A stretch of 64,000 nucleotides of DNA from a virus: positions 308,017-372,016 of IMG/VR virus record IMGVR_UViG_3300042367_000228. One strand, given 5' to 3'. The notes below the pieces were generated by a model. That model ran no database searches, had not been told where the DNA came from, and worked only from the letters and a program-made list of their open reading frames with translations. Each line of letters starts with the position of its first letter. The first letter of the stretch is position 1. Below, piece by piece: positions 11,275 through 64,000 of the stretch. The translations under genes were made by a program, and so were the position numbers.

Positions 11275-11532
11275 ATGAAATTTGAAACAGCTCCAATCCA
11301 AAATCAAATTCAATGCAGATCCTATGATGAAGCCAAAATGTATCTAATGTTCTTAGAAATAGACGGCAAACGAGGATGGCGCATGCCTACGCGATACGAA
11401 CGCACTAAATATTTTAGAGTAGGTCAACATGTTAATGAACCTGTATGGGATCTTCTAGATGAAGACACAGTTTTATTAAATAATAAAACACGACGATTAA
11501 TACCAGTAAGAGACAGAAACGATGACAATTGA
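11275..11532 (+). CDS. W-R-L-P-T mini-protein (DUF1566-derived), copy 1
   Basis: 85 residues. First of 49 paralogs in the window. Shared plan: short N-terminus often M-[IL]-E-[LI]-A-P; core [YI]-DEA-x-x-Y-C about 15 residues in; W-R-[LMF]-P-T about 15 further; a variable middle; and C-terminal PVRD. The same landmarks frame DUF1566 (Lcl C-terminal, C-type-lectin-like) domains. Here: YDEAKMYLMF, GWRMPT, PVRDRNDDN. Overlaps the next copy by 11 bases. Function unknown. Confidence 0.75.
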   Translation: MKFETAPIQNQIQCRSYDEAKMYLMFLEIDGKRGWRMPTRYERTKYFRVGQHVNEPVWDLLDEDTVLLNNKTRRLIPVRDRNDDN

Positions 11533-11755
11533 GATATCACCAAAGGAATACTGGAAAGAAATGTGCCGAGACGAAGCACAGCTGTATTGTTTGTTCTTAG
11601 ATATAGACGGTAAAAGAGGGTGGCGATTTCCTAAGTCTGATGAATTAAGTCACCATATCATGTGGTATAAAGAAGATTTAAACAATCCTGATTTAGGTGA
11701 TCCTGACGATTTGTACCCCATAGTACCAGTACGAGATAGAAAAGATGACGATTGA
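11522..11755 (+). CDS. W-R-L-P-T mini-protein, copy 2
   Basis: 77 residues. RDEAQLYCLF, GWRFPK (T replaced by K), PVRDRKDDD. Overlaps both neighbours by 11 bases, with near-identical junction sequence GATGACAATTGA / GATGACGATTGA. Confidence 0.72.
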   Translation: MTIEISPKEYWKEMCRDEAQLYCLFLDIDGKRGWRFPKSDELSHHIMWYKEDLNNPDLGDPDDLYPIVPVRDRKDDD

Positions 11756-11999
11756 AATATCACCAATAGGTACCTGGAAGAAACCACTTCCTAAAGATCA
11801 AGCACAGCTTTATTGTATGTTCTTTGAACATGACGGCAGAGGATGGAGATTCCCAACTGAAGAAGAATGCTTAACCGATATGCGCGGAATCCCAACAATT
11901 ATAGGATGGTGTTGGAACGCAGAACGTATAGAAAGTGCCGACTATGATACTGCAAAATGCGATGTAATTTTAGTTCGCGATGTAAAAAATGATAAATAA
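11745..11999 (+). CDS. W-R-L-P-T mini-protein, copy 3
   Basis: 84 residues. KDQAQLYCMF, GWRFPT, LVRDVKNDK. Last of the first block; followed by a capsid-targeted protein gene. Confidence 0.72.
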   Translation: MTIEISPIGTWKKPLPKDQAQLYCMFFEHDGRGWRFPTEEECLTDMRGIPTIIGWCWNAERIESADYDTAKCDVILVRDVKNDK

Positions 12000-15065: not shown

Positions 15066-15284
15066 ATGATTGAACTAGCACCACTATCTGATTATAAGAT
15101 GTCATACGACAAAGCCTGGTTGTATTGTGCTACCTTGACCTATAAGAACAAATACGATTGGCGTATTCCGACTGATGCCGAGTTTACATATAACGAAGAA
15201 ATTGATGAAGAATCTTTTGATCAATCAGACGAACCACATCATAGCCATTGGCGTGTTCAACCAGTGAGGACTAAAGATGCTTGA
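15066..15284 (+). CDS. W-R-L-P-T mini-protein, copy 4
   Basis: 72 residues, RBS AGGAG. Starts MIELAP; YDKAWLYCAT, YDWRIPT, QPVRTKDA. Overlaps the next by eight bases. Confidence 0.75.
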   Translation: MIELAPLSDYKMSYDKAWLYCATLTYKNKYDWRIPTDAEFTYNEEIDEESFDQSDEPHHSHWRVQPVRTKDA

Positions 15285-15501
15285 GTTTGCCCCAATGCCG
15301 GCCGGCCGGTTCTCATTTGATGATGCCTGGTTATATTGTGCTACACTAACATATAATAACAATTATGACTGGCGCATACCAACTGAAGATGAATTTTGCA
15401 ACTACGAAGAAATTGATTGCGATGCGTTTGATCAGAATGATGAAGGTCTTAAGATAGCTAAAGTAACACATAAAATCTGTCCAGTGCGCACTGCTGATTA
15501 A
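15277..15501 (+). CDS. W-R-L-P-T mini-protein, copy 5
   Basis: 74 residues. MLEFAPMP, FDDAWLYCAT, YDWRIPT, CPVRTAD. Very similar to copy 4 (shared EEID-x-x-x-FDQ), a recent tandem duplication. Confidence 0.75.
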   Translation: MLEFAPMPAGRFSFDDAWLYCATLTYNNNYDWRIPTEDEFCNYEEIDCDAFDQNDEGLKIAKVTHKICPVRTAD

Positions 15502-15509
15502 AATACCAT

Positions 15510-15538
15510 TTGTAAAGTCCTAAGTTTTGCGCTATAAT
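15510..15538 (+). promoter_or_regulatory. Early promoter
   Basis: TTGTAA-17-TATAAT, preceded by the cassette lead AAATACCAT; RBS AAGGAG follows. For 15561. Confidence 0.85.
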
Positions 15539-15560
15539 AATGTTTTATGTAAGGAGCCAT

Positions 15561-15851
15561 ATGCTAGTAGCCACTTGTCAATCAAAATTTATAACGTATG
15601 CCGAAGCTGTTATGTATTGTTTGTTTTTAGATCACCAAGGAAAGAAAGGCTGGCGGTTGCCAACTTTACTTGAATGGGCAGATACTGCAGATGGCAGACT
15701 TACAACTAATACATGGTATCGAGAGAGTACGAATGAAGAACGAGCATTGCTTGCAAAACAATACAAACATACCCAGCAAGCTATAGAAGCTATGATTGAA
15801 CCATATGAAAATCGTAAAACAGGTATAGCAGTTGCAGTGAGGGATGAATGA
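15561..15851 (+). CDS. W-R-L-P-T mini-protein, copy 6
   Basis: 96 residues from ATG after AAGGAG. YAEAVMYCLF, GWRLPT, AVAVRDE. The variable middle is about 20 residues longer than usual and helical. Confidence 0.72.
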   Translation: MLVATCQSKFITYAEAVMYCLFLDHQGKKGWRLPTLLEWADTADGRLTTNTWYRESTNEERALLAKQYKHTQQAIEAMIEPYENRKTGIAVAVRDE

Positions 15852-16075
15852 TAGAAATATTAGCTAACCCACCTGGGATCAGTCGGAAGTTATATAATCG
15901 CGATGCAGCCTTTTTGTATATAATTACTCTAGTCCATAATGGACATGCAGACTGGCGATTTCCTACTCCAGACGAATGGGTTAACAGTCCTTTAGCGTAT
16001 ATGGCATGGCATCAAGGAAGAATTGATGACGATAGATTTTTCAGCTATCACATATACCCAGTGAGAGATATATGA
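15848..16075 (+). CDS. W-R-L-P-T mini-protein, copy 7
   Basis: 75 residues. RDAAFLYIIT, DWRFPT, YPVRDI. ATGA overlap with copy 6 and with copy 8. Confidence 0.72.
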   Translation: MIEILANPPGISRKLYNRDAAFLYIITLVHNGHADWRFPTPDEWVNSPLAYMAWHQGRIDDDRFFSYHIYPVRDI

Positions 16076-16266
16076 TTAGATTTGCTAAACCATCCGGATG
16101 GTTAAACAACACAACTCCGGAAGCTGCTGACATGCACGTATTGTTTTATGAAGAAGACGGTTTAAAATACTGGAGGAGAGCAACTAACGAAGATTTTATT
16201 GACTTTGCAATACACGTTCCTGAATCATTGTTATCTAATACATGTATTCCGGTAAAGGATTTATGA
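16072..16266 (+). CDS. W-R-L-P-T mini-protein, copy 8 (divergent)
   Basis: 64 residues. Core decayed: ADMHVLFYEEDG, WRRAT in place of WRLPT, IPVKDL. Still in frame with ATGA overlaps, so probably expressed. Confidence 0.62.
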   Translation: MIRFAKPSGWLNNTTPEAADMHVLFYEEDGLKYWRRATNEDFIDFAIHVPESLLSNTCIPVKDL

Positions 16267-16484
16267 GTATGCTTGAATTAGCCCCGCCATCAGAAAAAAT
16301 GACATATGACGAAGCAATTATGTATTGCTTTTGGTTAGAACACGATGGAAAGAAAGGCTGGAGAATGCCAACACATGAAGAATGGGCAAAGACTAAAGGC
16401 ATCATGGTGTACACTTGGAGACAGAATGATCACCGTACGATGATGGATACGATGCCTGTAGTACCGGTAAGAGGACAATTATGA
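16263..16484 (+). CDS. W-R-L-P-T mini-protein, copy 9
   Basis: 73 residues (ATG in the ATGA overlap; a second ATG at 16269 is possible). YDEAIMYCFW, GWRMPT, VPVRGQL. Confidence 0.72.
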   Translation: MSMLELAPPSEKMTYDEAIMYCFWLEHDGKKGWRMPTHEEWAKTKGIMVYTWRQNDHRTMMDTMPVVPVRGQL

Positions 16485-16894
16485 AATGGTTTAACCGAAT
16501 ATTCAATCGCAATGTATATTTAAAATTTGACGTACCTACAAACCCTCCAGACAACAACAGAGTGCGTTATGTTGTAGGAGTCCCGGTTAATCACTATGAG
16601 AAAAAAATCATTGAAATCGTTTATACTGGAATACTATGTTCCAGTGATGATGAAGCAACGATGCATTTGTTTATGATGAGTAAGCATGATGGAAAGAGAG
16701 GATGGCGACTACCTACAATACACGAAGCTATATACTGTTCAGAGCTATCAGTAGTTAAGCATTTCTCTGATTGGAATTCACTTAGAGTTCCATTAGAATT
16801 AGTTTTAGTAAGAGATGTTACAGAAGATGAGTATAACTATTACAATGGACCTATAACACGTTTCTTTAAGCAGTTTGCGCAGTGGACTTATTGA
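16481..16894 (+). CDS. W-R-L-P-T family fusion, copy 10
   Basis: 137 residues. About 50 extra N-terminal residues (MKWFNRIFNRNVYLKF ...) precede the family core (DDEATMHLFMMS, GWRLPT, LVRDVTEDE), and a 20-residue aromatic tail follows. An unusual fused member. Confidence 0.65.
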   Translation: MKWFNRIFNRNVYLKFDVPTNPPDNNRVRYVVGVPVNHYEKKIIEIVYTGILCSSDDEATMHLFMMSKHDGKRGWRLPTIHEAIYCSELSVVKHFSDWNSLRVPLELVLVRDVTEDEYNYYNGPITRFFKQFAQWTY

Positions 16895-16925
16895 TAGCTA
16901 AATAGCAGACAATAAGGAGAGTGTT

Positions 16926-20401: not shown

Positions 20402-20614
20402 ATGATTGAATCAGGAATGTGTTCTAGTAATTTTCTAACATACGATGAAGCCTGGCTCTTCTGTATCACTTGCACACACTTCAAGAAATATGACTGGCGA
20501 ATGATGACACGACGTGAATTTATAGAGTATAAACCAAGAGAAAAATGGTTCGAAGTCACCGGCGTGTCACATTTAATAGCCCAGGTACTACCTGTGAGAG
20601 ATGTAAATGATTAG
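20402..20614 (+). CDS. W-R-L-P-T mini-protein, copy 11
   Basis: 70 residues. YDEAWLFCIT, DWRMMT, LPVRDVND. Overlaps copy 12 by eight bases. Confidence 0.72.
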   Translation: MIESGMCSSNFLTYDEAWLFCITCTHFKKYDWRMMTRREFIEYKPREKWFEVTGVSHLIAQVLPVRDVND

Positions 20615-20858
20615 AAGAGATTTAGCTTACAATACACACTTAGAATACTTAGATTATTCTAACTATAAAATGGATTGGGACAGCGCATGGTTATACTGTG
20701 CTACCTGTACATATAAAGACATGTATGATTGGCGAATGCTTACTCCATATGAATTTCGTAATGATCTATACATACACAGCTGGCATGCCGCTTCACGAAA
20801 GGACAACTTTCCAGCATTTGTATTACCAGTTCGAGATAGAGGCCCCGCTGTAACATGA
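20607..20858 (+). CDS. W-R-L-P-T mini-protein, copy 12, tail from GGCCCC element
   Basis: 83 residues. WDSAWLYCAT, DWRMLT, LPVRDR, then GPAVT and the stop, all encoded by a GGCCCCGCTGTAAC element at the 3' end. The element therefore changed the C-terminus. Confidence 0.72.
   Translation: MIRRDLAYNTHLEYLDYSNYKMDWDSAWLYCATCTYKDMYDWRMLTPYEFRNDLYIHSWHAASRKDNFPAFVLPVRDRGPAVT
20841..20852 (+). repeat. GGCCCCGCTGTA element, copy 7 (in-frame)
   Basis: Translated as G-P-A-V at the end of copy 12, and two bases before the ATG of copy 13. Confidence 0.9.
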
Positions 20859-21073
20859 GCATAGAAATATTACCAACAATTGATAAACAATTTACATACG
20901 ATGAAGCAATGATGTACTGCTTTTTTCTTATTATAGACGGCAAAAAAGGATGGAGACTACCTACAAGAGAAGAATATAATTCTTCTGTTAAAATATGGGG
21001 TTGGCATCAAGATGATGGTAGAGCATCAACATCTGATCTTTTCAAAGTAACCCCAGTGCGGGACTCTGACTAA
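20855..21073 (+). CDS. W-R-L-P-T mini-protein, copy 13
   Basis: 72 residues. YDEAMMYCFF, GWRLPT, TPVRDSD. Its start lies two bases after a GGCCCC element; the only purine-rich tract is GATAGAGG before it. Confidence 0.7.
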   Translation: MSIEILPTIDKQFTYDEAMMYCFFLIIDGKKGWRLPTREEYNSSVKIWGWHQDDGRASTSDLFKVTPVRDSD

Positions 21074-21081
21074 ATTACCAT

Positions 21082-21110
21082 TTGCTTACTAATAAATATT
21101 TTGCTATAAT
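21082..21110 (+). promoter_or_regulatory. Early promoter
   Basis: TTGCTT-17-TATAAT; for 21145. Confidence 0.85.
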
Positions 21111-21144
21111 ATGTTTTTATTTACAAACCTTACGGAGTACGTTT

Positions 21145-21441
21145 ATGTCTACAGAACTTATTGAAAAATTAGCACACGCACCAGGTCCGCATTCAGCTTA
21201 CATTGAGGATTCTGAATTACGTGATATGGCAATTGTATGGGCAGTTGCAATTCGTAATGAAAATCGAGTATCGGGTACTGAATCAGAGTATTTAAAACTA
21301 ATGCGTGACATGATGGAAAATGAGCCATTTTTGTATAGACGATTTGCTGACTATCTAATCAATACTGTTGATGAAGGCACATATAAAGAAGCGTGGAGTC
21401 AAACAGCAGATAGAATTCGTAAAACATTACTACCTAAGTGA
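21145..21441 (+). CDS. Hypothetical protein
   Basis: 98 residues, RBS CGGAG. Helical, soluble; no domain recognised. Leads a run of six family genes. Confidence 0.62.
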   Translation: MSTELIEKLAHAPGPHSAYIEDSELRDMAIVWAVAIRNENRVSGTESEYLKLMRDMMENEPFLYRRFADYLINTVDEGTYKEAWSQTADRIRKTLLPK

Positions 21442-21448
21442 GGTAAGC

Positions 21449-21655
21449 ATGACACACGTAGAACATGGACCGAGATCCGAAAACAAAATGACTTATGATG
21501 AAGCAATAATGTATTGCTTCTGGTTTACTTACAATGGTAAGAAAGGATGGCGACTTCCGACCTTTCATGAATTTGTAGATGGGAACTCTTGGTATAAAGA
21601 TGCTGAGATTACTAAACGCAAGTGGTATGTAAAACCTGTGAGGGACATAAAATGA
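21449..21655 (+). CDS. W-R-L-P-T mini-protein, copy 14
   Basis: 68 residues. YDEAIMYCFW, GWRLPT, KPVRDIK; RBS GAGGTAAG. Confidence 0.72.
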   Translation: MTHVEHGPRSENKMTYDEAIMYCFWFTYNGKKGWRLPTFHEFVDGNSWYKDAEITKRKWYVKPVRDIK

Positions 21656-21969
21656 ACTTTGAAATAGCACCACGCGACAAATGGTTAGCAGAAACTCCTT
21701 ACGACCAAGGAGCGATGTATTGCCTATTCCTTGAAATTGATGGAAAGAAAGGATGGCGATTGCCAACTAATGAAGAAGCTGACATGTTAGTAAACACAGT
21801 AGATCCGGGTAATGATTTTGAGAATCCCGAAGTCCTTCCAGAGTTAGAGGAGTTTAATTCCTATTGGTTTGATCCTGATCATTGGGGGTTTTGGACACAC
21901 GAAGATACAGTTGACGACTTTGATCTTGACGAACTGTTTACTGCGATTCCAGTAAGGGACATAACATGA
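21652..21969 (+). CDS. W-R-L-P-T mini-protein, copy 15
   Basis: 105 residues. YDQGAMYCLF, GWRLPT, IPVRDIT. The middle is expanded and acidic (PELEEFNSYWFDPDHWGFW). Confidence 0.72.
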   Translation: MNFEIAPRDKWLAETPYDQGAMYCLFLEIDGKKGWRLPTNEEADMLVNTVDPGNDFENPEVLPELEEFNSYWFDPDHWGFWTHEDTVDDFDLDELFTAIPVRDIT

Positions 21970-22259
21970 ATATTGAAATAGCACCAAAAACAACGGAGAT
22001 ACAAGCCACGTGGGATGAAGCAGTTATGTATTGTTTTTTTCTTGAAATAGATGGAAAGAAAGGATGGAGACTGCCTACTAAAGAGGAATTAGATTATATC
22101 TACCATTCAAAAAATGATTTCATTGATGCCTACTACTGGTCCTCTACTGAGTACAATGGCAGCAGCGCCTGGGGTCAGGTTTTCACCAGTGGCACCCAGT
22201 TCAGCTCCAGTAAGAACGGCGGCAGCTACTACGTTAGAGCAATAAGGGACATAATATGA
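21966..22259 (+). CDS. Full-length DUF1566 (Lcl_C-like) domain protein, copy 16
   Basis: 97 residues. Beyond the shared core (WDEAVMYCFF, GWRLPTKEEL) it keeps the DUF1566 C-half: AYYWSSTEY, AWGQVFTSGTQ and YYVRAIRD. This member links the mini-proteins to the C-type-lectin-like DUF1566 domain. The C-half is locally GC-richer (AGCGCCTGGGGTCAGG), hinting at recent acquisition. Confidence 0.85.
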   Translation: MNIEIAPKTTEIQATWDEAVMYCFFLEIDGKKGWRLPTKEELDYIYHSKNDFIDAYYWSSTEYNGSSAWGQVFTSGTQFSSSKNGGSYYVRAIRDII

Positions 22260-22333
22260 ACTTTGAAGTCGCACCTAACGGTGCTCGAACTGATAATTGC
22301 CATATGCAAAACTTAACTGGAGAACTACGATGA
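22256..22333 (+). pseudogene. Truncated W-R-L-P-T family remnant
   Basis: 25-residue frame starting MNFEVAPNGAR, like the N-terminus of copy 15 (MNFEIAPRDKW), then no core. Coupled by ATGA overlaps on both sides. Confidence 0.5.
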
Positions 22334-22806
22334 GAAAATCCCTATCACATAAAGAAATCCTAATACTAAAACTCAATAATCTTTTAGCTACTTCTGAATC
22401 ACTCGAAGACAAACTCGTAACCGAGAATAATCAATGGCAATGCCGTGCAACAGTCCTACGCAGCGATATTCAAAATTTGATTGACTATGTAGGCTGGTCG
22501 GTAGAAGAGAATAATATGAATATTGAAATAGCACCAAAATCTGCCGAGGAGTCATGTAGTTGGGATACTGCACGAACATATTGTTTATTTCTTAACTTTG
22601 ATGGAAAAACTGATTGGCGACTTCCAACAAAAGAAGAACTAAATCAAATCTATGAATCAGATAATGATTTTCGTAGTGGTCGATACTGGGCTTCTAATGA
22701 ACAAAGTGTAGATACTGCTTGGAGTCAAAGTTTTGAAAATGGTAGCAGATACCCTAACTTTAAGTTCCACGGTGGCCTATACGTTAGACCAGTAAGGGAC
22801 TTATGA
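22330..22806 (+). CDS. DUF1566 protein with fused N-terminal helix, copy 17
   Basis: 158 residues, RBS TGGAG. Residues 1-61 are an extra helical region; an internal ATG at 22515 begins the usual MNIEIAPKS. Core WDTARTYCLF, DWRLPTKEEL, then DUF1566 C-half YWASNE, AWSQSFENG, YVRPVRDL. The join has no stop, so it is a gene fusion or dual-start gene. Confidence 0.75.
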   Translation: MRKSLSHKEILILKLNNLLATSESLEDKLVTENNQWQCRATVLRSDIQNLIDYVGWSVEENNMNIEIAPKSAEESCSWDTARTYCLFLNFDGKTDWRLPTKEELNQIYESDNDFRSGRYWASNEQSVDTAWSQSFENGSRYPNFKFHGGLYVRPVRDL

Positions 22807-23069
22807 TTATTGATTATAAGATTGATCGTGCTCCGTCACGTATAGTAAACAACTATGAAGAGGCTTGGCTGTATTGCCTTACCTGTAATCATGATGGACA
22901 TAATGATTGGAGGTTACCTACTGTAGACGAATGGCAATATTCGTCTACAAACACAATGCCTTTAGAAGCTTATTATGAAAACAATTATTTCTTTAAAGTT
23001 GAACCGGCTATGCAGAATAAGGCAGTTCCAGTACGTGAAGTAAAATATTCTTTACAAATCAACAAATAA
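22803..23069 (+). CDS. W-R-L-P-T mini-protein, copy 18
   Basis: 88 residues. YEEAWLYCLT, DWRLPT, VPVREVK plus an eight-residue tail that overlaps the next promoter's -35 box. Confidence 0.72.
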   Translation: MIIDYKIDRAPSRIVNNYEEAWLYCLTCNHDGHNDWRLPTVDEWQYSSTNTMPLEAYYENNYFFKVEPAMQNKAVPVREVKYSLQINK

Positions 23070-25204: not shown

Positions 25205-25378
25205 ATGGACCAAATACAACAATTTGAAGTAGACCAAATCACAGCAAGTCTTGCAGCTCAAGGCGTTACTAATTTCACAATGAAACGTGGTAACAACTGT
25301 GTTTGGGTCTCGTACAACTCAATCGATTGTTATTATATTTTCAAAGATGAAAAACTTGTTAACATACAAGTAGATTAA
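25205..25378 (+). CDS. Hypothetical small protein
   Basis: 57 residues, RBS GGAGC. Overlaps the 3' end of the endonuclease gene by four bases, so that cassette inserted directly behind it. Confidence 0.6.
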   Translation: MDQIQQFEVDQITASLAAQGVTNFTMKRGNNCVWVSYNSIDCYYIFKDEKLVNIQVD

Positions 25379-26160
25379 ATATGTTTGCAGTTATCAAAAT
25401 GATATCGTTTCATATTTGTAGATCCTTCTTTTCCGCAATGAGGACATATTATTTTTGGTTTATGTTGTTTAGCATAACTCATTTTTGCTTTTGTGTCAGC
25501 CGACATGTTTTGTTTAGAAAGGCGCATTTTTTCTATAGAAGATGCTGAATGAGTTTTGCCTTTGTGTGCGGCACTAATTTTAGCCTTGTGATCGTCTGAT
25601 TTAGGTCTTCCTTTTCCTGCTATACTTAGTTTAGCTTTAGTTTCAGCTGAAAGAGGTTTACCTTTATTAGGTGACGTCCTGCCTTTAGAAGCGACGCTTA
25701 GTTTAGCTTTAGTTTCATCTGAGACAGGTTTACGCGGTTTAGTTGAAACTCTGCCTTTTCCTGCTATACTTAGTTTAGCTTTGGTTTCAGCTGAAAGAGG
25801 AATACCTTTTTTGCGTGACGGCCGGCCTTTACTAGCCTGACTTATCTTTTTTCGGGTTTCAGCTGATGGAGATCGTTCTCTCATTGCAGCTGCATGATTT
25901 CGTTTAAGCCAACTATATAACTTATTATTACGATATTTTCCAGATGACATTCGATGGGCTGCAAATAGCAATTTATGATTATCTGGATAGATTTTTACAA
26001 GCAGTTGATGTGCTACATAATGAGCTTCAGGAGTTAGACGTACTAAGTTACTTGGTTCATTAGAACCGCCCATACATCGCGGAATAATGTGATGCTTTTC
26101 TGTGTAATCTGCAATCATATCTTTTGCAGTGAGTTGTTCGTATATTTTTTGGTAATTCAT
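25375..26160 (-). CDS. HNH homing endonuclease with NUMOD3 repeats (1)
   Basis: 261 residues. HNH core at 22-55: EKHHIIPRCMGGS (His23/His24), Asn38, TPEAHYVAHQ. Then NUMOD3-type DNA-binding repeats (ETRKKISQASKGR, AETKAKLSIAGKGR, DETKAKLSVASKGR, DHKAKISAAHKGK). The C-terminus has CPHCG and H-x-x-x-C like a zinc finger. Free-standing homing enzyme on the opposite strand to its neighbours; nearly identical cassette at 37956-38675. Confidence 0.92.
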   Translation of the reverse strand: MNYQKIYEQLTAKDMIADYTEKHHIIPRCMGGSNEPSNLVRLTPEAHYVAHQLLVKIYPDNHKLLFAAHRMSSGKYRNNKLYSWLKRNHAAAMRERSPSAETRKKISQASKGRPSRKKGIPLSAETKAKLSIAGKGRVSTKPRKPVSDETKAKLSVASKGRTSPNKGKPLSAETKAKLSIAGKGRPKSDDHKAKISAAHKGKTHSASSIEKMRLSKQNMSADTKAKMSYAKQHKPKIICPHCGKEGSTNMKRYHFDNCKHI

Positions 26161-37955: not shown

Positions 37956-38675
37956 TTAGGGTTTGCGTTTACAGTTATCAAAATGGTATCGTTTCATATT
38001 TCCACCTCTTCCTATTTTATTACAGTAAGGGCAGGTTAATTCAATTTTTTGTTTTCCCTTCATTGCGGCACTTATGTTAGCTTTATGATTAGCTGATTTA
38101 AGTATACCAGTTTTAGCAGAACTTATGTTAGATTTATGATTATCTGAAAGTTGTTTACCATTATGCGCAGACCGCATCTTAGATTTAGTTTCCTCTGAAT
38201 GTCTTTTTCCTGTATTAGTAACACTTAATTTAGCTCGTGTTTTGGATGAAACAACTCTTCCTGTATTTGTAGAACTTAGCTTAGTCCGCATACTATCTGG
38301 CATACTTTTACCTTTGTTAGGCGACGGCCTTCCTGTAAGAGATGCACTTATTTTAGCCTTATGTTCATCTGATATAGTTTTTCCTTTATTAGCAATACTG
38401 GCTGCTATAGAAAACTTTCGTCTAAGCCATCCATACAATTTATTTGTAATTCTACAATTACCCATCATATTAGCCGCATACACTAATTTATGATTATGTG
38501 GGTAGATTTTTACAAGTAGCTGATGTGCTACATAATGAGCCTCGGGAGTTAATAATACTAAGTTACTTGGATTGTTAGAACCGCCCATACAACGAGGAAT
38601 TATGTGATGCTTTTCTGTATAGTCTGCAATCATATCTTTTGCAGTTAATTGTTCATATATCTTTTGATAGTTCAT
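37956..38675 (-). CDS. HNH homing endonuclease with NUMOD3 repeats (2)
   Basis: 239 residues; N-terminal 50 residues almost identical to the protein at 25375-26160 (EKHHIIPRCMGGSN, TPEAHYVAHQLL). Then NUMOD3-type repeats (DEHKAKISASLTGR, KTRAKLSVTNTGK, DNHKSNISSAKTG) and C-terminal CPYCN zinc-finger-like end. Inserted next to tRNA-Cys, opposite to all neighbours. Confidence 0.92.
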   Translation of the reverse strand: MNYQKIYEQLTAKDMIADYTEKHHIIPRCMGGSNNPSNLVLLTPEAHYVAHQLLVKIYPHNHKLVYAANMMGNCRITNKLYGWLRRKFSIAASIANKGKTISDEHKAKISASLTGRPSPNKGKSMPDSMRTKLSSTNTGRVVSSKTRAKLSVTNTGKRHSEETKSKMRSAHNGKQLSDNHKSNISSAKTGILKSANHKANISAAMKGKQKIELTCPYCNKIGRGGNMKRYHFDNCKRKP

Positions 38676-45008: not shown

Positions 45009-45272
45009 ATGTTAAACTCAATATCAAGCGTATCAGCAATACTATCAGATGCCAAATATGTTATGGAAGTATTCGCTAAACAAAAAGAAGCTCAACAACC
45101 TATTGTTACTCCAGAGAAAGCATTGCATTCTACACAAGTGATGAACAAGGTGCATAACGATCAATTAGCAAAAGATCCAACGTGGATTAATGGAGTTCAC
45201 TGCCATGGCTCACTTAGCCGACATAACTACACATACTCTTATACGGGTCAAACACCAGTTGCAATCCAGTAA
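45009..45272 (+). CDS. Hypothetical protein
   Basis: 87 residues, RBS AAAAGGAG. Its end overlaps the next promoter's -35 box. No domain recognised. Confidence 0.6.
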   Translation: MLNSISSVSAILSDAKYVMEVFAKQKEAQQPIVTPEKALHSTQVMNKVHNDQLAKDPTWINGVHCHGSLSRHNYTYSYTGQTPVAIQ

Positions 45273-45287
45273 GTAATTTGCTATAAT
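45259..45287 (+). promoter_or_regulatory. Early promoter
   Basis: TTGCAA-17-TATAAT; for 45318. Confidence 0.87.
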
Positions 45288-46567: not shown

Positions 46568-46765
46568 ATGCACTTTATAACATTAAAAAGAGTAGTCAAT
46601 AAATCAACAGTACAAGTAGACACATTTGAAATAGACATTAGAGTAAAAGACATTGTAGCATTTCATGATGGCCTGATTGTAGTAGGCGCCCATCAGTTCC
46701 ATGTAATTGAATCAAGAAGAGACATCCACGATAAAATTCGTAAAGCAGATACAACATGGGAATAA
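46568..46765 (+). CDS. Hypothetical protein
   Basis: 65 residues, RBS AAGGAA. Beta-rich; opens the operon that contains the 25-gene array, although no promoter is obvious. Confidence 0.58.
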   Translation: MHFITLKRVVNKSTVQVDTFEIDIRVKDIVAFHDGLIVVGAHQFHVIESRRDIHDKIRKADTTWE

Positions 46766-47145
46766 TTCCGACTAACCCGCCACCGAGCATGCCACTGCAG
46801 ACATTGCAAAGTTCATATTTTTCAAGTCCTGTGATTAGCAACAGCCATATGCAAGAGTTAAGGACAGGACTTAGCGAACAAATTATTAAGCCAGTACTTA
46901 AATGGGCAGGTAGAACGATGTTAAACTTAGACCTAGCTCCTAGGTCACAAAACAAAATGTCATTTGACGAAGCTCAAATGTATATTCTCTTTTGTAAACA
47001 CAATGGATACAAGAACTGGAGACTTCCAACGCGTGAAGAATGGGAAACTATTAACGGTTGGGAGACACCTGTATGGTTAGTTGAAAAGGACAACGTAGTA
47101 ACGGATAAAGACTGGTATGCACAACCAGTACGGGACAAGAAATGA
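46756..47145 (+). CDS. W-R-L-P-T family with N-terminal extension, copy 25
   Basis: 129 residues. Residues 1-54 resemble a phage virion or Mu-type tail segment rich in Pro/Ser; an internal ATG at 46918 begins the usual MLNLDLAPRS. Core FDEAQMYILF, NWRLPT, QPVRDKK. Heads the array to 52554. Confidence 0.66.
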   Translation: MGIIPTNPPPSMPLQTLQSSYFSSPVISNSHMQELRTGLSEQIIKPVLKWAGRTMLNLDLAPRSQNKMSFDEAQMYILFCKHNGYKNWRLPTREEWETINGWETPVWLVEKDNVVTDKDWYAQPVRDKK

Positions 47146-47384
47146 TAGAGCTAGCGCCACATGAGCTATGGAAGTATGACGTAAACAAACATGAAGCTAG
47201 GCTGTACATATTCATGCTTAAAGGCTATAGAATGGGTACATTAGGAGAGATGCAATCATTAATCGACGCTATACGAGAAGTTGATCATGAAATGTGGGAC
47301 GCATGGACACTAGATGCAATAGATAGCGACGCTATACCAGACGACGAAACCGGAACAGCTATACCACTGAGAGATATAACATGA
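47142..47384 (+). CDS. W-R-L-P-T mini-protein, copy 26 (divergent)
   Basis: 80 residues. NKHEARLYIFM, GYRMGT replaces WRLPT, IPLRDIT. MIELAP start. Confidence 0.66.
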   Translation: MIELAPHELWKYDVNKHEARLYIFMLKGYRMGTLGEMQSLIDAIREVDHEMWDAWTLDAIDSDAIPDDETGTAIPLRDIT

Positions 47385-47623
47385 TAGAATATGGAAAGAA
47401 ATCAGAAAACGATTTAAACTACGATGCGGCATTTATGTATTGCTTTTGGCATGAGCCAGTGGGCACTTGGAGGCTTCCGACTGAGCAGGAATACTTCCAA
47501 AAGATGCGACTAAAACACCCAAGTAGTATAATTCCCACTTGGTATGAAGATAGAGATCAGCTTGCAGAGAAAGTACATCAACAACCTGCTAAAATGCGAG
47601 TAGTGCCTGTACGATCGCTATGA
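47381..47623 (+). CDS. W-R-L-P-T mini-protein, copy 27
   Basis: 80 residues. YDAAFMYCFW, TWRLPT with a shortened loop before it, VPVRSL. Confidence 0.72.
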   Translation: MIEYGKKSENDLNYDAAFMYCFWHEPVGTWRLPTEQEYFQKMRLKHPSSIIPTWYEDRDQLAEKVHQQPAKMRVVPVRSL

Positions 47624-47877
47624 CCCAGGTTAGTTACTATGCTAATAATATAAGGTTTCACCATTTGATTGAAGTAGCTCCAACGTCTAATGAAATGATG
47701 ACGTACGACCATGCTAAGATGTATATCATGTTCTATGAACACAATGGACATAGAGATTGGAGGTTGCCTACGTTACAAGAATGGCTAAGCCATAATCCGC
47801 CATTGATAGGGTGGGATGATCACGGAGAACATATTAGTGATATAGTTCGTTATGTAACCCCAGTAAGAGACCTATGA
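47620..47877 (+). CDS. W-R-L-P-T mini-protein, copy 28
   Basis: 85 residues. Ten-residue extension before LIEVAPTS; YDHAKMYIMF, DWRLPT, TPVRDL. Confidence 0.72.
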   Translation: MTQVSYYANNIRFHHLIEVAPTSNEMMTYDHAKMYIMFYEHNGHRDWRLPTLQEWLSHNPPLIGWDDHGEHISDIVRYVTPVRDL

Positions 47878-48101
47878 AACTTGAACTAGCTCCTCCATCT
47901 ATTCAACTACACAGAGATGAAGCATTCCTATATGTTTGGACGTGTACACACAACAACAAGTATGACTGGCGTCTGCCTACCCTACATGAATCAAGCAAAA
48001 ATAGTCTTACTGGCTGGAATGAATATGACTTATATGTATTTGCACATGAGATATCATACGACCCAATCTATTGGACAATTACCCCAGTGAGAGACTTATG
48101 A
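47874..48101 (+). CDS. W-R-L-P-T mini-protein, copy 29
   Basis: 75 residues. MKLELAPPS, RDEAFLYVWT, YDWRLPT, TPVRDL. Confidence 0.74.
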   Translation: MKLELAPPSIQLHRDEAFLYVWTCTHNNKYDWRLPTLHESSKNSLTGWNEYDLYVFAHEISYDPIYWTITPVRDL

Positions 48102-48313
48102 TTGAATTAGCTCCAGTATCTACAGAAAGGATGACCTATGACAATGCTAAATTGTACATCCTGTTCTATGAATATAATGGCTATAGAGATTGGCGTCTGC
48201 CTACATTCACTGAATGGATCACCCGCGACGATGTATATGGGTGGGATGATACAGAACCATCAATTGATTATGGTCCAAAACTTCGTGTTGTAACCCCAGT
48301 GAGAGACTTATGA
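48098..48313 (+). CDS. W-R-L-P-T mini-protein, copy 30
   Basis: 71 residues. MIELAPVS, YDNAKLYILF, DWRLPT, TPVRDL; close to copy 28 in the middle (GWDD). Confidence 0.74.
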   Translation: MIELAPVSTERMTYDNAKLYILFYEYNGYRDWRLPTFTEWITRDDVYGWDDTEPSIDYGPKLRVVTPVRDL

Positions 48314-48591
48314 TTGAAATAGCCCCAAGATTCGCACAACGTATGACATACGACGAAGCCATATTAAACTTATTCATGTTTGTACATAATGGAAAGAAAG
48401 ACTGGCGCATGCCTACCGAATACGAATACTACTACGGTACCGCCCGAGCTATAGAGAAGTCGTGGCATCGCGAAAAAGTAGATGAGTTTACTAACTGGTA
48501 CTTAACCCCTGTGAGAGATGTCAAATTTGTTTACATACCCAGCATAACGTGTTATAATAAAGACATACTGTTTAATAAGAGATACAGATGA
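48310..48591 (+). CDS. W-R-L-P-T mini-protein, copy 31, extended through a promoter
   Basis: 93 residues. YDEAILNLFM, DWRMPT, TPVRDVK, then a 22-residue tail translated from an early-promoter sequence (48530-48558). Confidence 0.7.
   Translation: MIEIAPRFAQRMTYDEAILNLFMFVHNGKKDWRMPTEYEYYYGTARAIEKSWHREKVDEFTNWYLTPVRDVKFVYIPSITCYNKDILFNKRYR
48530..48558 (+). promoter_or_regulatory. Early promoter inside the array
   Basis: TTTACA-17-TATAAT within the end of copy 31; gives the downstream 18 copies their own transcript. Confidence 0.82.
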
Positions 48592-48848
48592 TAGAACTAG
48601 CACCTAAAGAACTATGGCTTGAACAATCTACACAAAACGAAGCATTGATGCACATATTCTTCCAAAAGGGTTATCGCTTGCCTACATTTGAAGAACTACC
48701 TCAAATGAGACAAATACTAAACCGAGAAGTAATATTAGTGTGGACTGAAAACACAGTACGTGACCCATTGTTTGAAATGTTTGATCTAGATAACAGGTCA
48801 TTGCTTCCGTTTAAAGCTAAAGTTATTCCAGTGAGGGATGTATGTTAG
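48588..48848 (+). CDS. W-R-L-P-T mini-protein, copy 32
   Basis: 86 residues. QNEALMHIFF, GYRLPT, IPVRDVC. Similar to copy 26 in lacking the tryptophan. Confidence 0.68.
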   Translation: MIELAPKELWLEQSTQNEALMHIFFQKGYRLPTFEELPQMRQILNREVILVWTENTVRDPLFEMFDLDNRSLLPFKAKVIPVRDVC

Positions 48849-49087
48849 AGTTTGGACCGAGATTAGAAAGAGGTATCAACTCGTATGAGTTAATATCTCA
48901 AGGCATTAACTCATATGATGATGCGTTTTTGGCCTGTTTAACATGTGACCATAGGGGATATTATGATTGGCGTTTACCAACCAGAAAAGAGTATTTTGAC
49001 GAGGATTTAATGTCTGGAGCGTGGTATGAAAGCAAGCCATCATGGCGCAGAGCATGGTATGTAGTACCAGTGAGGGATAAATGTTAG
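48842..49087 (+). CDS. W-R-L-P-T mini-protein, copy 33
   Basis: 81 residues. Internal duplication GINSYELISQGINSYDD; FLACLT, YDWRLPT, VPVRDKC. Confidence 0.72.
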   Translation: MLEFGPRLERGINSYELISQGINSYDDAFLACLTCDHRGYYDWRLPTRKEYFDEDLMSGAWYESKPSWRRAWYVVPVRDKC

Positions 49088-49299
49088 AAATAGGCCCATG
49101 CTCATCTCACACACTAATATTAGATGAAGCCTGGCTATACTGTATTACACTAGAACATAACGGACATAGAGATTGGAGATTGCCTACTTGGCAGGAAATG
49201 AATAGCCATCAAATGCGAAACTGTAGAGGCTGGACGAACCCGTACTATCTTAGTTCTAGTCTTAGCCAAATGCTTGTTTACCCAGTGAGAGATTTATGA
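49081..49299 (+). CDS. W-R-L-P-T mini-protein, copy 34
   Basis: 72 residues. LDEAWLYCIT, DWRLPT, YPVRDL. Confidence 0.75.
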   Translation: MLEIGPCSSHTLILDEAWLYCITLEHNGHRDWRLPTWQEMNSHQMRNCRGWTNPYYLSSSLSQMLVYPVRDL

Positions 49300-49514
49300 T
49301 TGAAACAGGATACCAATCAGCACAACAATTAGAGTATGACGAAGCACTGCTGTATTGTTATACCTGTACCGATAGACAAAAATATGACTGGCGTATGCCT
49401 ACATCAAAAGAACACAACCACTTCCCAGCTACTACTTGGCATATTGATAGAATACCCGATATGGTCCTATGGATGGAACTTTATGTAATTCCAGTGAGAG
49501 ATAAAGATGTTTGA
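49296..49514 (+). CDS. W-R-L-P-T mini-protein, copy 35
   Basis: 72 residues. YDEALLYCYT, YDWRMPT, IPVRDKDV. Confidence 0.75.
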   Translation: MIETGYQSAQQLEYDEALLYCYTCTDRQKYDWRMPTSKEHNHFPATTWHIDRIPDMVLWMELYVIPVRDKDV

Positions 49515-49734
49515 ACAAGCACCTATGATCAAGTATGTTACTATAGACGAAGCTGAACTGTACACGATGACGCTAACCTATAACAATCACTACGATTGGA
49601 GGCTCCCTACTATAATAGAACTACGTCACGCTACGCCTGATATATCCAAACGCCCAGTATGTTGGCATCAGCATGATCTTATGGGTCAGTTGGATGATAT
49701 GAAATGCGCATTGATCCCAGTGAGAACTATATGA
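49507..49734 (+). CDS. W-R-L-P-T mini-protein, copy 36
   Basis: 75 residues. IDEAELYTMT, YDWRLPT, IPVRTI. Confidence 0.74.
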   Translation: MFEQAPMIKYVTIDEAELYTMTLTYNNHYDWRLPTIIELRHATPDISKRPVCWHQHDLMGQLDDMKCALIPVRTI

Positions 49735-49967
49735 TTGAATTAGGACCACATGACGACTGCTTTGTAACGATAGACGAAGCAATGTTATACATCTATACCC
49801 TAACCCACAACAACAAATATGACTGGCGTTTTCCGACAGCAGCAGAATATGATGACACTGATGAGATGCCTCCTATGACCTGGCATAGCACCTGGTATGA
49901 CTATACCGTACATTACGCTAATGATTCAGAACGAGCAGTTTACCCAGTGAGAGATATAGATGATTGA
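49731..49967 (+). CDS. W-R-L-P-T mini-protein, copy 37
   Basis: 78 residues. MIELGPHD, IDEAMLYIYT, YDWRFPT, YPVRDIDD. Confidence 0.74.
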   Translation: MIELGPHDDCFVTIDEAMLYIYTLTHNNKYDWRFPTAAEYDDTDEMPPMTWHSTWYDYTVHYANDSERAVYPVRDIDD

Positions 49968-50184
49968 CATACACACAAACAGTAAACTGGTCTCATACAC
50001 AGAAGCCGAACTATATGCTTGGACTTGTACCAATCAAGGCTATTATGATTGGCGATTACCTAACTTTGATGACCCTATACCATTCTTTATGCAAACCGAA
50101 TGCTGGATTTCCTATACGTTGCCATATACTGATTACTTCGCAGAAGGCAGAACAATAGTAGTAGTGAGAGATAAAGATGATTGA
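49960..50184 (+). CDS. W-R-L-P-T mini-protein, copy 38
   Basis: 74 residues. YTEAELYAWT, YDWRLPN, VVVRDKDD. Confidence 0.72.
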   Translation: MIDIHTNSKLVSYTEAELYAWTCTNQGYYDWRLPNFDDPIPFFMQTECWISYTLPYTDYFAEGRTIVVVRDKDD

Positions 50185-50401
50185 AGCTAAACTTGTATCA
50201 CACTCAAAATCGTGTGAAGAAGCTGAACTTTACATTTGGACACTAACACACGAAAACAAGTACGATTGGCGTTTTCCAACACGCGATGAATGCGTAAAAC
50301 TTACAGGTGGTCCAATATGGTGTGATTCACTAATCAAAAGTCCATATATAGAGCCACTCGACCGCTTTTATTTAATAGCAGTGAGAGATACAGATGCTTG
50401 A
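50177..50401 (+). CDS. W-R-L-P-T mini-protein, copy 39
   Basis: 74 residues. CEEAELYIWT, YDWRFPT, IAVRDTDA. Confidence 0.73.
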   Translation: MIEAKLVSHSKSCEEAELYIWTLTHENKYDWRFPTRDECVKLTGGPIWCDSLIKSPYIEPLDRFYLIAVRDTDA

Positions 50402-50597
50402 GTTTGCTAGTCAATCCCATTTACTCCCTTATTACGAAGCTTGGCTTTACTGCGTTACTTGTACTCACAACAACAAGTATGACTGGCGATATCCTACTAT
50501 TGGAGATGTATGGGAGCATCCGCAGATTCTCAAGAATAATTTTACACCACCATACGACTTGTTCTACATAACCCCAGTGAGAACTCAAGATGATTGA
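50394..50597 (+). CDS. W-R-L-P-T mini-protein, copy 40
   Basis: 67 residues. YYEAWLYCVT, YDWRYPT, TPVRTQDD. Confidence 0.74.
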   Translation: MLEFASQSHLLPYYEAWLYCVTCTHNNKYDWRYPTIGDVWEHPQILKNNFTPPYDLFYITPVRTQDD

Positions 50598-50811
50598 ACA
50601 AGCTACTACTAAACGGCGTGACTTCTCATATGACGAAGCTTGGCTATACGTAGCCACTTGCACCCATAAAAAGAAATACGATTGGCGCATGCCTACTATG
50701 CTAGAACACTTTGGAAGAAAGTATCGACCTCTGATACTTGGACAATGGTATGAGCGAGACTATTTTGAACACCGAACATACGTAACCCCTGTGAGAACAA
50801 ACGATGATTGA
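50590..50811 (+). CDS. W-R-L-P-T mini-protein, copy 41
   Basis: 73 residues. YDEAWLYVAT, YDWRMPT, TPVRTNDD. Confidence 0.75.
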   Translation: MIEQATTKRRDFSYDEAWLYVATCTHKKKYDWRMPTMLEHFGRKYRPLILGQWYERDYFEHRTYVTPVRTNDD

Positions 50812-51001
50812 AGCAGCCCCTATGTCACATTTAATGCCATACAACGATGCATTCTTATATGCGATAACTTGCACCCATAACGACAAGTATGACTGGCGAA
50901 TGCCAACTGCTGGCGACTTCTCCAATAATGTTAAACTAAGAACAACTGATCAACGCCGCAACATACAATTTTGTCCTATCAGAGGATCAAGAGATGATTG
51001 A
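50804..51001 (+). CDS. W-R-L-P-T mini-protein, copy 42
   Basis: 65 residues, the shortest in the array. YNDAFLYAIT, YDWRMPT, CPIRGSRDD. Confidence 0.73.
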   Translation: MIEAAPMSHLMPYNDAFLYAITCTHNDKYDWRMPTAGDFSNNVKLRTTDQRRNIQFCPIRGSRDD

Positions 51002-51209
51002 ACTAGCCCCACGAACACCGGAACTTATGGACTATGACCTAGCTTGGCTATACTGTATTACACTTGGCCACAATGACTGTTATGACTGGCGTATACCAAC
51101 AGCCGACGAATATAAGAGTTCTCGGTGTAGTTTGTCTTGGCATGAAACTAGATATATGTTCCTAGATCCATTATATCATGTAACCCCAGTGAGAACTAAC
51201 AATGATTGA
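50994..51209 (+). CDS. W-R-L-P-T mini-protein, copy 43
   Basis: 71 residues. MIELAPRT, YDLAWLYCIT, YDWRIPT, TPVRTNND. Confidence 0.75.
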   Translation: MIELAPRTPELMDYDLAWLYCITLGHNDCYDWRIPTADEYKSSRCSLSWHETRYMFLDPLYHVTPVRTNND

Positions 51210-51426
51210 ACAAGCCCCTAAGACTACTGACAAATTTGATGCCTATAGTGCCGAAATTTACATATACACTTGCACACACGACAACAAGTATGACTGGCGA
51301 ATGCCTACTATAAGAGAATGTGCAGACTTGATTATAACCGGTAGTTGGAATGCTAGTGATTTTAACCATATGACAATGTCCCCACATAGGTGGAAGGTAA
51401 CCCCTGTGAGAACTAACAATGATTGA
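51202..51426 (+). CDS. W-R-L-P-T mini-protein, copy 44
   Basis: 74 residues. MIEQAPKT, YSAEIYIYT, YDWRMPT, TPVRTNND. Confidence 0.74.
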   Translation: MIEQAPKTTDKFDAYSAEIYIYTCTHDNKYDWRMPTIRECADLIITGSWNASDFNHMTMSPHRWKVTPVRTNND

Positions 51427-51652
51427 ATATGGCCTTAAATTAGAAAAAGTCGTAGCCTATGACACAGCTTGGTTATACTGCGCTACACTAACACACGACA
51501 ACAAGTACGACTGGAGATTACCAACCAACACAGAATGGCATAAGTTCTTTAGACAAGACCCAGTTGCACCAAACTATTCACGGGTTTGGTATAAAGATAG
51601 ACTCACACCATATCAGTGGTATTGCTTACCGGTGAGAACTAACAATGATTGA
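51419..51652 (+). CDS. W-R-L-P-T mini-protein, copy 45
   Basis: 77 residues. YDTAWLYCAT, YDWRLPT, LPVRTNND. Confidence 0.75.
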   Translation: MIEYGLKLEKVVAYDTAWLYCATLTHDNKYDWRLPTNTEWHKFFRQDPVAPNYSRVWYKDRLTPYQWYCLPVRTNND

Positions 51653-51857
51653 ACTTGCTATACGACCTCAAGAAGAAATGGATTACGATACTGCATGGCT
51701 GTATTGTCTAACACTTGACTATAACGGACATAAAGATTGGCGATTGCCTACAGGAACTGAATATACTACTACGGATGCGCTATCATTTAGTTGGTTTGAA
51801 GAAAGAAAAACCGGCGAAAGATGGGTATGCCAACCAGTAAGGACTATAAATGATTGA
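51645..51857 (+). CDS. W-R-L-P-T mini-protein, copy 46
   Basis: 70 residues. YDTAWLYCLT, DWRLPT, QPVRTIND. Confidence 0.75.
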   Translation: MIELAIRPQEEMDYDTAWLYCLTLDYNGHKDWRLPTGTEYTTTDALSFSWFEERKTGERWVCQPVRTIND

Positions 51858-52077
51858 ACTAGCCCCAGAAGCAAAAGAATATATGAACTATGACACCGCC
51901 TGGCTATACTGCGCTACGCTAACCCGCAACAACAAGTATAACTGGCGATTACCGACTCATAGAGAATACAACAGATCCCTACTTATAATGAATTGGTTTG
52001 AAGATAGATATCGTATCTTGGGATTGGGCGATGCGCGTGACCTTCATGTAACCCCAGTAAGGACTATAAATGATTGA
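51850..52077 (+). CDS. W-R-L-P-T mini-protein, copy 47
   Basis: 75 residues. MIELAPEA, YDTAWLYCAT, YNWRLPT, TPVRTIND. Confidence 0.75.
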   Translation: MIELAPEAKEYMNYDTAWLYCATLTRNNKYNWRLPTHREYNRSLLIMNWFEDRYRILGLGDARDLHVTPVRTIND

Positions 52078-52285
52078 ACTAGCACTACAAACACAACAAG
52101 AAATAACTTATGATCTAGCTTGGCTATACTGTATTACACTTGACTACAATGGCCATAAGGACTGGCGACTACCAACAGCTAACGAATATAAAAGTTTTCA
52201 GTTTACATCAGCTTGGCATGAAGGTAGATTTCAAGTTCTACAAGAATATTATGTACTCTATGTAATCCCAGTGAGAACCTTATGA
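52070..52285 (+). CDS. W-R-L-P-T mini-protein, copy 48
   Basis: 71 residues. YDLAWLYCIT, DWRLPT, IPVRTL; similar to copy 43 (ANEYKS, WHEGRF). Confidence 0.75.
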   Translation: MIELALQTQQEITYDLAWLYCITLDYNGHKDWRLPTANEYKSFQFTSAWHEGRFQVLQEYYVLYVIPVRTL

Positions 52286-52554
52286 TCGAACTTGCTCCCT
52301 ACTTATACCAAACGAAACAAGACGATGCGTTCTTATTCATTATTACTTGCACACACAAAGACAAATACGACTGGCGTTTCCCTACTATGTTTGAAATCTT
52401 ATATAGTGGTATGTTTGAGAATTTAGATCCATGGAGATCTGATAATGTATATCCTAAACTTATTCACTTGATTGACTTGACATACACAGCTGTTCCGGTA
52501 AGAGATTATCCTTTTCCAACTAGACCTCCCGGACTTTATGTACAAAAGCAATGA
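52282..52554 (+). CDS. W-R-L-P-T mini-protein, copy 49 (array end)
   Basis: 90 residues. QDDAFLFIIT, YDWRFPT, VPVRDYP, then a Pro-rich tail PFPTRPPGLYVQKQ. Closes the array. Confidence 0.74.
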   Translation: MIELAPYLYQTKQDDAFLFIITCTHKDKYDWRFPTMFEILYSGMFENLDPWRSDNVYPKLIHLIDLTYTAVPVRDYPFPTRPPGLYVQKQ

Positions 52555-52664: not shown

Positions 52665-52694
52665 TTTACACACCATAACACACTATAGTATAAT
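52665..52694 (+). promoter_or_regulatory. Promoter-like sequence
   Basis: TTTACA-18-TATAAT overlapping an ACTATAGT palindrome; no clear gene follows for 200 bases. Confidence 0.5.
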
Positions 52695-59676: not shown

Positions 59677-59754
59677 CGGCATTCCGGTCCGTGGTTGAAT
59701 CAGTTAATCGGCATTCCGGTCCGTGGTTGAATCAGTTAATCGGCATTCCGGTCC
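59677..59754 (+). repeat. 32-base tandem repeat carrying CGGCATTCCGGTCC
   Basis: Two perfect 32-base units (59677-59708, 59709-59740) and a partial third; each begins CGGCATTCCGGTCC. Confidence 0.88.
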
Positions 59755-63473: not shown

Positions 63474-63819
63474 AATATCACCTATTTAAAGTATGTTATG
63501 CGCTTTTTTTGTGCATACTTAATGCACAATAAATGCGCGTTAAAAGTAAAGTAAAAATAAATTGTTAAAAAGCTAACTTAAAAATGCGTTTTTTTATGCG
63601 CTTGTTTTTTTAAGTTGTGCATAGTTTACAGCATATAAAAAAAAAGTAAAATTTAATTGCAATTTATTTTTACAATTTAGCACTAAAAATGCGCATTTTT
63701 AAAAAAAGTGTATAAAAAACAATAACTTATAATTTAAAAATAATTTTATTTAATGCGCATTTTTTGCGCATAATGCGCATTTATAGCGTTTTTAATGCGC
63801 ATTTTTAGTGCTATATATT
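63474..63819. other. Very AT-rich region with ATGCGCAT palindromes
   Basis: No gene. Exact ATGCGCAT at 63689, 63753, 63773 and 63795, with partial copies (TGCGCA, ATGCGCG, ATGCGTT) from 63500 on, in A/T-rich surroundings. Confidence 0.65.
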
Positions 63820-64000
63820 GCAAGCGCATAGCAAGCGCATAGCAAGCGCATAGCACAGGCCCCGCTGTTAGCGCATAGCAAGCGCATAGCATAGCAAGCG
63901 CATAGCATAGCAAGCGCATAGCATAGCAAGCGCATAGCATAGCAAGCGCATAGCATAGCAAGCGCATAGCATAGCAAGCGCATAGCATAGCAAGCGCATA
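63820..64000. repeat. Tandem repeat array AGCAAGCGCATAGCAT
   Basis: Three 11-base units AGCAAGCGCAT, then a GGCCCCGCTGTT insert, then about seven 16-base units AGCATAGCAAGCGCAT running off the window. The open minus-strand frames across it are repeat artefacts. Confidence 0.9.
63858..63869 (+). repeat. GGCCCCGCTGTT element, copy 22 (inside tandem repeat)
   Basis: CAGGCCCCGCTGTT (14 bases) interrupts one repeat unit; both sides continue the unit. Confidence 0.88.

Follow-up and report, generated by a model that had tools for sequence, protein, structure and literature searches.

Why should a phage keep 25 overlapping genes of one family, alike at both ends and in the core and strongly different in between? 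The question is raised by positions 46756-52554 of a 64,000-base stretch of viral DNA (the window), which corresponds to positions 308017-372016 of the 372,016-base IMG/VR virus record IMGVR_UViG_3300042367_000228. A sequence-only reading of the window had seen in this locus an unbroken operon of paralogs with a hypervariable middle, resembling a variable-domain library kept alive by recombination between conserved blocks. The answer that we favor, with a probability of roughly 0.6, is a translationally coupled tandem cassette array of minimal Lcl_C proteins, individually maintained, soluble and probably early binders, in a jumbo phage. It draws on homology, gene overlaps, codon bias at the gene ends, turnover among relatives, the sites of crossover, the selection regime and the lack of a reverse transcriptase match, all read from the sequence.

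The architecture was found as described. All 25 frames are intact and succeed one another on the + strand, and a hidden Markov model (HMM) of the family returned the 49 copies that had been counted in the window. Overlaps of 4-8 bases had been claimed between neighbors; stop and start overlap at 24 of 24 junctions, by 4 nucleotides (nt; ATGA) ten times, by 7 nt (ATGTTAG) twice and by 8 nt twelve times. Exactly ATGATTGA stands at 10 of the 24 junctions, and TATGACTGGCG has 9 exact occurrences in the record as against 1 for a reversed-pattern control. The mean pairwise amino acid (aa) identity of the array paralogs is 0.54 at the MIExAP start, 0.44 in the helix, 0.63 in the core, 0.12 in the middle and 0.55 at the PVR end, which bears out the picture of conserved ends and core around a variable middle. 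The array and its gene starts are as follows.

46756..52554, + strand: array of 25 overlapping short Lcl_C-like genes (open reading frame (ORF) listing, junction table, family HMM, Lcl_C matches)
Array gene starts, + strand: 46756, 47142, 47381, 47620, 47874, 48098, 48310, 48588, 48842, 49081, 49296, 49507, 49731
Array gene starts, continued, + strand: 49960, 50177, 50394, 50590, 50804, 50994, 51202, 51419, 51645, 51850, 52070, 52282

What kind of protein is encoded? Lcl_C (PF07603, DUF1566) was matched at E<=0.1 by 44 of the 51 family members of the whole record and is the sole Pfam family common to most of them; weak FGE-sulfatase matches were obtained with 4 of the 51. Two full-length copies in the window pass the Lcl_C gathering cut-off of 34.9 bits, scoring 60 and 48.9 bits, and a relative of this full-length form has been solved (8q4e). 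When the short copies were compared with the full-length ones by hhalign, the two could be aligned from end to end, with a deletion in the center (P 99.6, E 1.2e-23, 75 columns). Most simply, the short form would be a trimmed stand-alone Lcl_C domain. Matches in the PDB to ETV6/TELSAM constructs were rejected, since they were inflated by triple repeats and had per-domain E values of 0.2-1.5.

The sequence-only reading took the middle to be hypervariable and likened the array to a library kept alive by recombination between conserved blocks. Taken further, this would be an actively diversified library, in which recombination at such blocks goes on making new middles or a retroelement mutates the middle. 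Several observations fit this. Paralog middles are only 12% identical, copies are frequently gained, lost and reordered, with crossovers in the end block, and the diverged region lies roughly where DUF1566 targets of diversity-generating retroelements (DGRs) have their variable region. Among the DGR variable proteins of human microbiomes, no annotated domain was more frequent than DUF1566, and in an analyzed example the variable region lay at the gene end (PMC4159848). In the related record G001, which holds 21 full-length-like stand-alone copies, ten such copies hardly differ in their first half and vary strongly in the second; among the full-length paralogs of this record, constraint is weak on the second half (nonsynonymous difference pN.337, synonymous pS.413) and strong on the scaffold. 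However, selection between orthologs speaks against such diversification. For array genes and their orthologs in the close relative G007, the ratio of nonsynonymous to synonymous divergence (dN/dS, omega) was 0.47 in the middle (confidence interval 0.28-0.67) and 0.14 in the scaffold (0.09-0.20). With the more distant relatives G002 and G006 the middle gave 0.36 and 0.19, so that omega of orthologous middles is below 1 in every comparison. Several middles are kept at 89-97% nt identity in distant relatives, and some are ~90% identical at the DNA level in phages where the mean scaffold dS is ~0.7-1.1. The middles are thus individually maintained by purifying selection between orthologs; they are less constrained than the scaffold, not in runaway change, and an actively diversified library is not supported on this point. 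The core has not been homogenized recently either, because its codons are synonymously saturated (observed against expected identity 0.21 and 0.27 for the R of WRxPT, 0.28 and 0.28 for the T). The pattern scan was run on subsets of the alignment, the full family alignment being too divergent.

Nor was a retroelement detected. No match to reverse transcriptase (RVT_1, PF00078) was obtained in the 372-kb record or in 14 related records, any of which may be incomplete; the G001 record, which carries a run of full-length stand-alone Lcl_C genes (L045, C1:236657-239800), is among those without a match. No A-specific mismatch pattern, the signature of a template repeat, was seen in near-repeats when the window and 20 kb of G001 were compared with themselves; in the window the larger-side A fraction of mismatches had a median of 0.36 and a top value of 0.63. 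A DGR was rejected on both grounds, no reverse transcriptase match and no template repeat with adenine mismatches. The diverged region occupies the second half of the domain, and the domain family is that of the DGR DUF1566 targets, without the mutagenesis signature. Ongoing diversification is for these reasons improbable in our view, and the locus appears to be a cassette-encoded expansion, without a retroelement, of a domain family that also occurs in DGR targets.

The variation in copy number is better described as turnover of whole units. Compared with 25 genes here, the homologous array of G007 numbers 20 and that of the more distant G006 ~28. Genes 1-4 stand in the same order in both relatives and gene 25 holds its position in G007, while the interior changes: five array genes (50994, 51419, 51645, 51850, 52070) are without a G007 ortholog, and the order 50590-50804-51202 is reversed in G007 with all three genes still on one strand. 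The genes that mark these changes are listed here.

47142..47384, + strand: array gene 2, a divergent member with YRMGT replacing WRLPT; protein identical in G007
49960..50184, + strand: array gene 14, missing from G007 as exactly one cassette, with the crossover in the shared AGTGAGAGATA
50590..50811, + strand: array gene 17, whose body in G007 is joined to the tail and junction that precede gene 25 (52282) here, with the crossover in the shared GTGAGAAC
50994..51209, + strand: array gene 19, among the five without a G007 ortholog
51645..51857, + strand: array gene 22, with an ortholog in the distant phage G002 (nt identity 93% in the middle and 87% in the N part)
52282..52554, + strand: array gene 25, the last

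Both mapped crossovers fall inside the conserved PVR/start block. Divergence concentrated in the middle, together with copy number that varies among relatives, means that neither uniform divergence along the gene nor a constant number of copies was found. Of the recombination between conserved blocks that had been proposed, the gain, loss and reordering of whole cassettes and the two end-block crossovers stand; homogenization of the core and hypervariation do not. Repeated junctions that make tandem duplication easy, and interior copies that turn over, might also be expected if duplication had simply been relaxed, leaving largely redundant gene-dosage copies or junk paralogs without distinct roles. 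Yet 25 of 25 frames in the array are intact, omega between orthologs is below 1 in scaffold and middle, paralog-specific middles are kept in distant phages (e.g. at 93-97% nt), and dozens of copies are retained in relatives. We regard relaxed duplication as unlikely. In G006 (L023:2283-2738), an in-frame fusion of two family copies forms a single ORF of 151 aa.

Why are crossovers tolerated in the end block? Synonymous codon identity was clearly above random only at the V (p=0.009) and the R (p=0.0005) of the PVR end, together with the GAT that the overlap forces. Conservation at the DNA level had been claimed for ends and cores; it holds for the PVR end, whereas the core, with synonymous identity equal to random, is conserved as protein only. 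GTG encodes the V of PVR in 102 of 158 copies with an ATG ORF that overlaps or adjoins them downstream and in 14 of 51 without one (p=4e-6), the background GTG usage being 19%. AGA or AGG (AGR) encodes the R in 134 of 167 copies with a following gene and in 30 of 58 without (p=6e-5), and in this record alone in 32/37 and 4/10 respectively (p=0.006); for the R of WRxPT, these genes use AGR in just 6/24. Pairing with an anti-Shine-Dalgarno (anti-SD) sequence, which may not be that of the host, reached -4.62 in this record as against -3.15 in synonymous recodings (n=33, p=2e-5). The PVR end motif (GTG AGA) looks like the ribosome-binding site of the next gene, and the DNA of the end block would be conserved because of this embedded site and the overlapping start codon. 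From the 24 overlaps, the codon bias and the anti-SD pairing we infer translational coupling along the array.

The surroundings of the array point to early expression. A strong sigma70-like promoter recurs about 25 times at 19.6-45.3 kb of the window (19643-45340), in front of many small genes; it consists of TTGCAA, 17 nt and TTTGCTATAATATGTTTTTACTTA, with a GGAGC ribosome-binding site after it. The last of its copies and two other promoter-like sites lie close to or within the array.

45259..45287, + strand: promoter-like site TTGCAA-17-TATAAT (extended -10), the last of the repeated early-type family, upstream of genes leading into the array
48530..48558, + strand: promoter-like site TTTACA-17-TATAAT, internal to gene 48310 in its C-terminal extension; G007 has the identical site
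52665..52694, + strand: promoter-like site TTTACA-18-TATAAT just past the array, with a similar post-array site in G007 and G006

The proteins are single-domain and 65-129 aa long, with no tail, trimerization or signal fusion and no membrane segment (highest 19-residue hydropathy 0.79). Because of the early-type promoters and the absence of membrane segments, they may be read as early, soluble and distinct binders: soluble and probably early-expressed, and most likely small intracellular binding proteins whose middle would serve as the contact surface. By analogy with early phage gene islands, their purpose is most likely host takeover or counter-defense. A different role is conceivable, in which C-type-lectin-like domains on the particle bind ligands of the host surface as do Mtd and other DGR targets. 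Two papers are in line with this, naming receptor-binding proteins as the main targets of phage DGRs (PMC10743442) and, for the variable proteins of DGRs, the C-type lectin fold as the conserved scaffold (PMC6328139). Small soluble proteins of the kind just described, encoded among early-type promoters, hardly suit virion components, and this role seems to us very unlikely.

The array of early, individually maintained binders could have arisen as follows. An ancestral stand-alone Lcl_C gene would have been shortened between WRLPTxxE and the final strand to a scaffold of ~70 aa, and the trimmed gene would then have been duplicated many times in tandem. As its last codons (PVR-D/T, mostly GTG AGA/AGG) may double as the ribosome-binding site of the next gene, with stop and start overlapping, each copy would be a self-contained unit, and a crossover in the end block could delete, insert or move a copy while the chain stays unbroken. 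Once fixed, a copy would retain its own middle by purifying selection, so that the array would hold distinct specificities and not a continuously mutating pool; the middles, as contact surfaces, would act on proteins of the host or of competitors in host takeover or counter-defense. More tentatively, and at rather less than even odds, the array may be a shuffle-tolerant, retroelement-free repertoire of lectin-like binders, in which recombination at the motif swaps whole specificities, the polycistron is kept, and dozens of binders are directed against host or competitor targets.

Some results weigh against the coupled array of Lcl_C binders. The short copies tested match the N-terminal half of Lcl_C at 12.7-24.7 bits, or not at all, and so stay under the gathering cut-off; the C-type-lectin-like fold of the ~70-aa form is a prediction from homology. 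In this record alone the GTG preference (23/36 as against 3/10) is not significant (p=0.08), and the p-values of all the codon counts are indicative, the copies being related and not independent. In G001 the R of PVR is frequently encoded by CGA, and anti-SD pairing is little stronger than in synonymous recodings (-4.53 as against -4.04), so that the case for an embedded ribosome-binding site varies in strength between records; the anti-SD used may also differ from that of the host. A search with the PADLOC models of defense proteins returned one weak orphan-methyltransferase match only.

The family extends beyond the array. Among its 51 rows in the 372-kb record, all lie in the window except a full-length copy at C1:251512 on the - strand. 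Related records hold up to 84 copies each, with 49-84 in the three largest records. The other copies of the window are in the following places.

11275..11999, + strand: small dispersed cluster of three short copies (ORF listing, family HMM)
15066..16894, + strand: dispersed short-copy cluster (15066, 15277, 15540, 15848, 16072, 16269, 16481)
20402..23069, + strand: dispersed cluster of short and full-length copies
21966..22259, + strand: full-length stand-alone Lcl_C protein of 97 aa, above the Pfam gathering score
22516..22806, + strand: second full-length stand-alone Lcl_C protein, above the Pfam gathering score
28669..33102, + strand: more dispersed copies (28669, 29372, 31613, 31830, 32614, 32854)

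The source appears to be a T4-superfamily-like jumbo phage, because its terminase frame is nearest to the PA5oct jumbo-phage group (~55% identity over 278-286 aa). The terminase frame (L028:1417-2391 (-), G000:C1:22939-23547) diverges from its relatives beyond RREYGCIVHDSVV, a point that might mark the start of an intein or insertion. No family member was found in six isolated jumbo phages (PA5oct, Phosso, Atu_ph07, Vibrio 2.275, GAP32, XaC1), a search of isolated phages with the short protein gave no match, and no DNA relatives were found among isolated phages. In cellular genomes the short form had no match and the full-length form two weak ones. Nothing matching was found in the literature on jumbo-phage paralog arrays or on DUF1566 paralogs in phages.

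Other features of the window were also noted. Its end, which is the end of the record (63748-64000), consists of short tandem repeats with eight exact copies of GCATAGCAAGCGCATA at 63873-64000, and an exact 32-base unit is repeated 2.4 times at 59677-59754. Two similar homing-endonuclease-like ORFs with internal repeats, so named from the sequence alone, lie at 25375-26160 and 37956-38675 (-). A 327-aa low-complexity, Ala/Glu-rich ORF occupies 16926-17909, with a long antisense ORF at 16898-17695.

Retroelements are known to create variation on the C-type-lectin-like/DUF1566 domain. Here the same domain family occurs at 49-84 copies in the three largest records without a detectable reverse transcriptase, with middles that are conserved one by one and a turnover that proceeds by units. 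If the copies are binders, this would be a second way of keeping a repertoire on that scaffold, and it would supply a large set of small, cleanly defined candidates for screening in host takeover or counter-defense. The dual role of the end motif, as protein end and apparent ribosome-binding site of the next gene, would be a simple reason why such arrays rearrange freely.

Compared with other Lcl_C proteins, the short copies share the N-terminal half (helix and WRLPTxxE), the central W and the final VR strand, but they stand alone at ~70 aa, lack part of the segment preceding the last strand and occur in tandem by the dozen. With DGRs that have DUF1566 or C-type-lectin targets they share the domain family and the location of variability in its second half; in contrast, no reverse transcriptase, template repeat or A-specific mismatches were found here, and instead of one mutated target there are many stable copies whose orthologous middles are under purifying selection. 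Early anti-defense islands of phages likewise consist of many small soluble proteins with early-type promoters and high gain and loss, whereas the members here are paralogs that have their scaffold and their cassette junction in common, and their anti-defense role is putative. In viral gene accordions and other tandem paralog expansions, too, recombination between tandem copies alters copy number; the copies here differ in being old and individually conserved, and the crossovers that could be located fall in a protein-end motif resembling the ribosome-binding site of the next gene.

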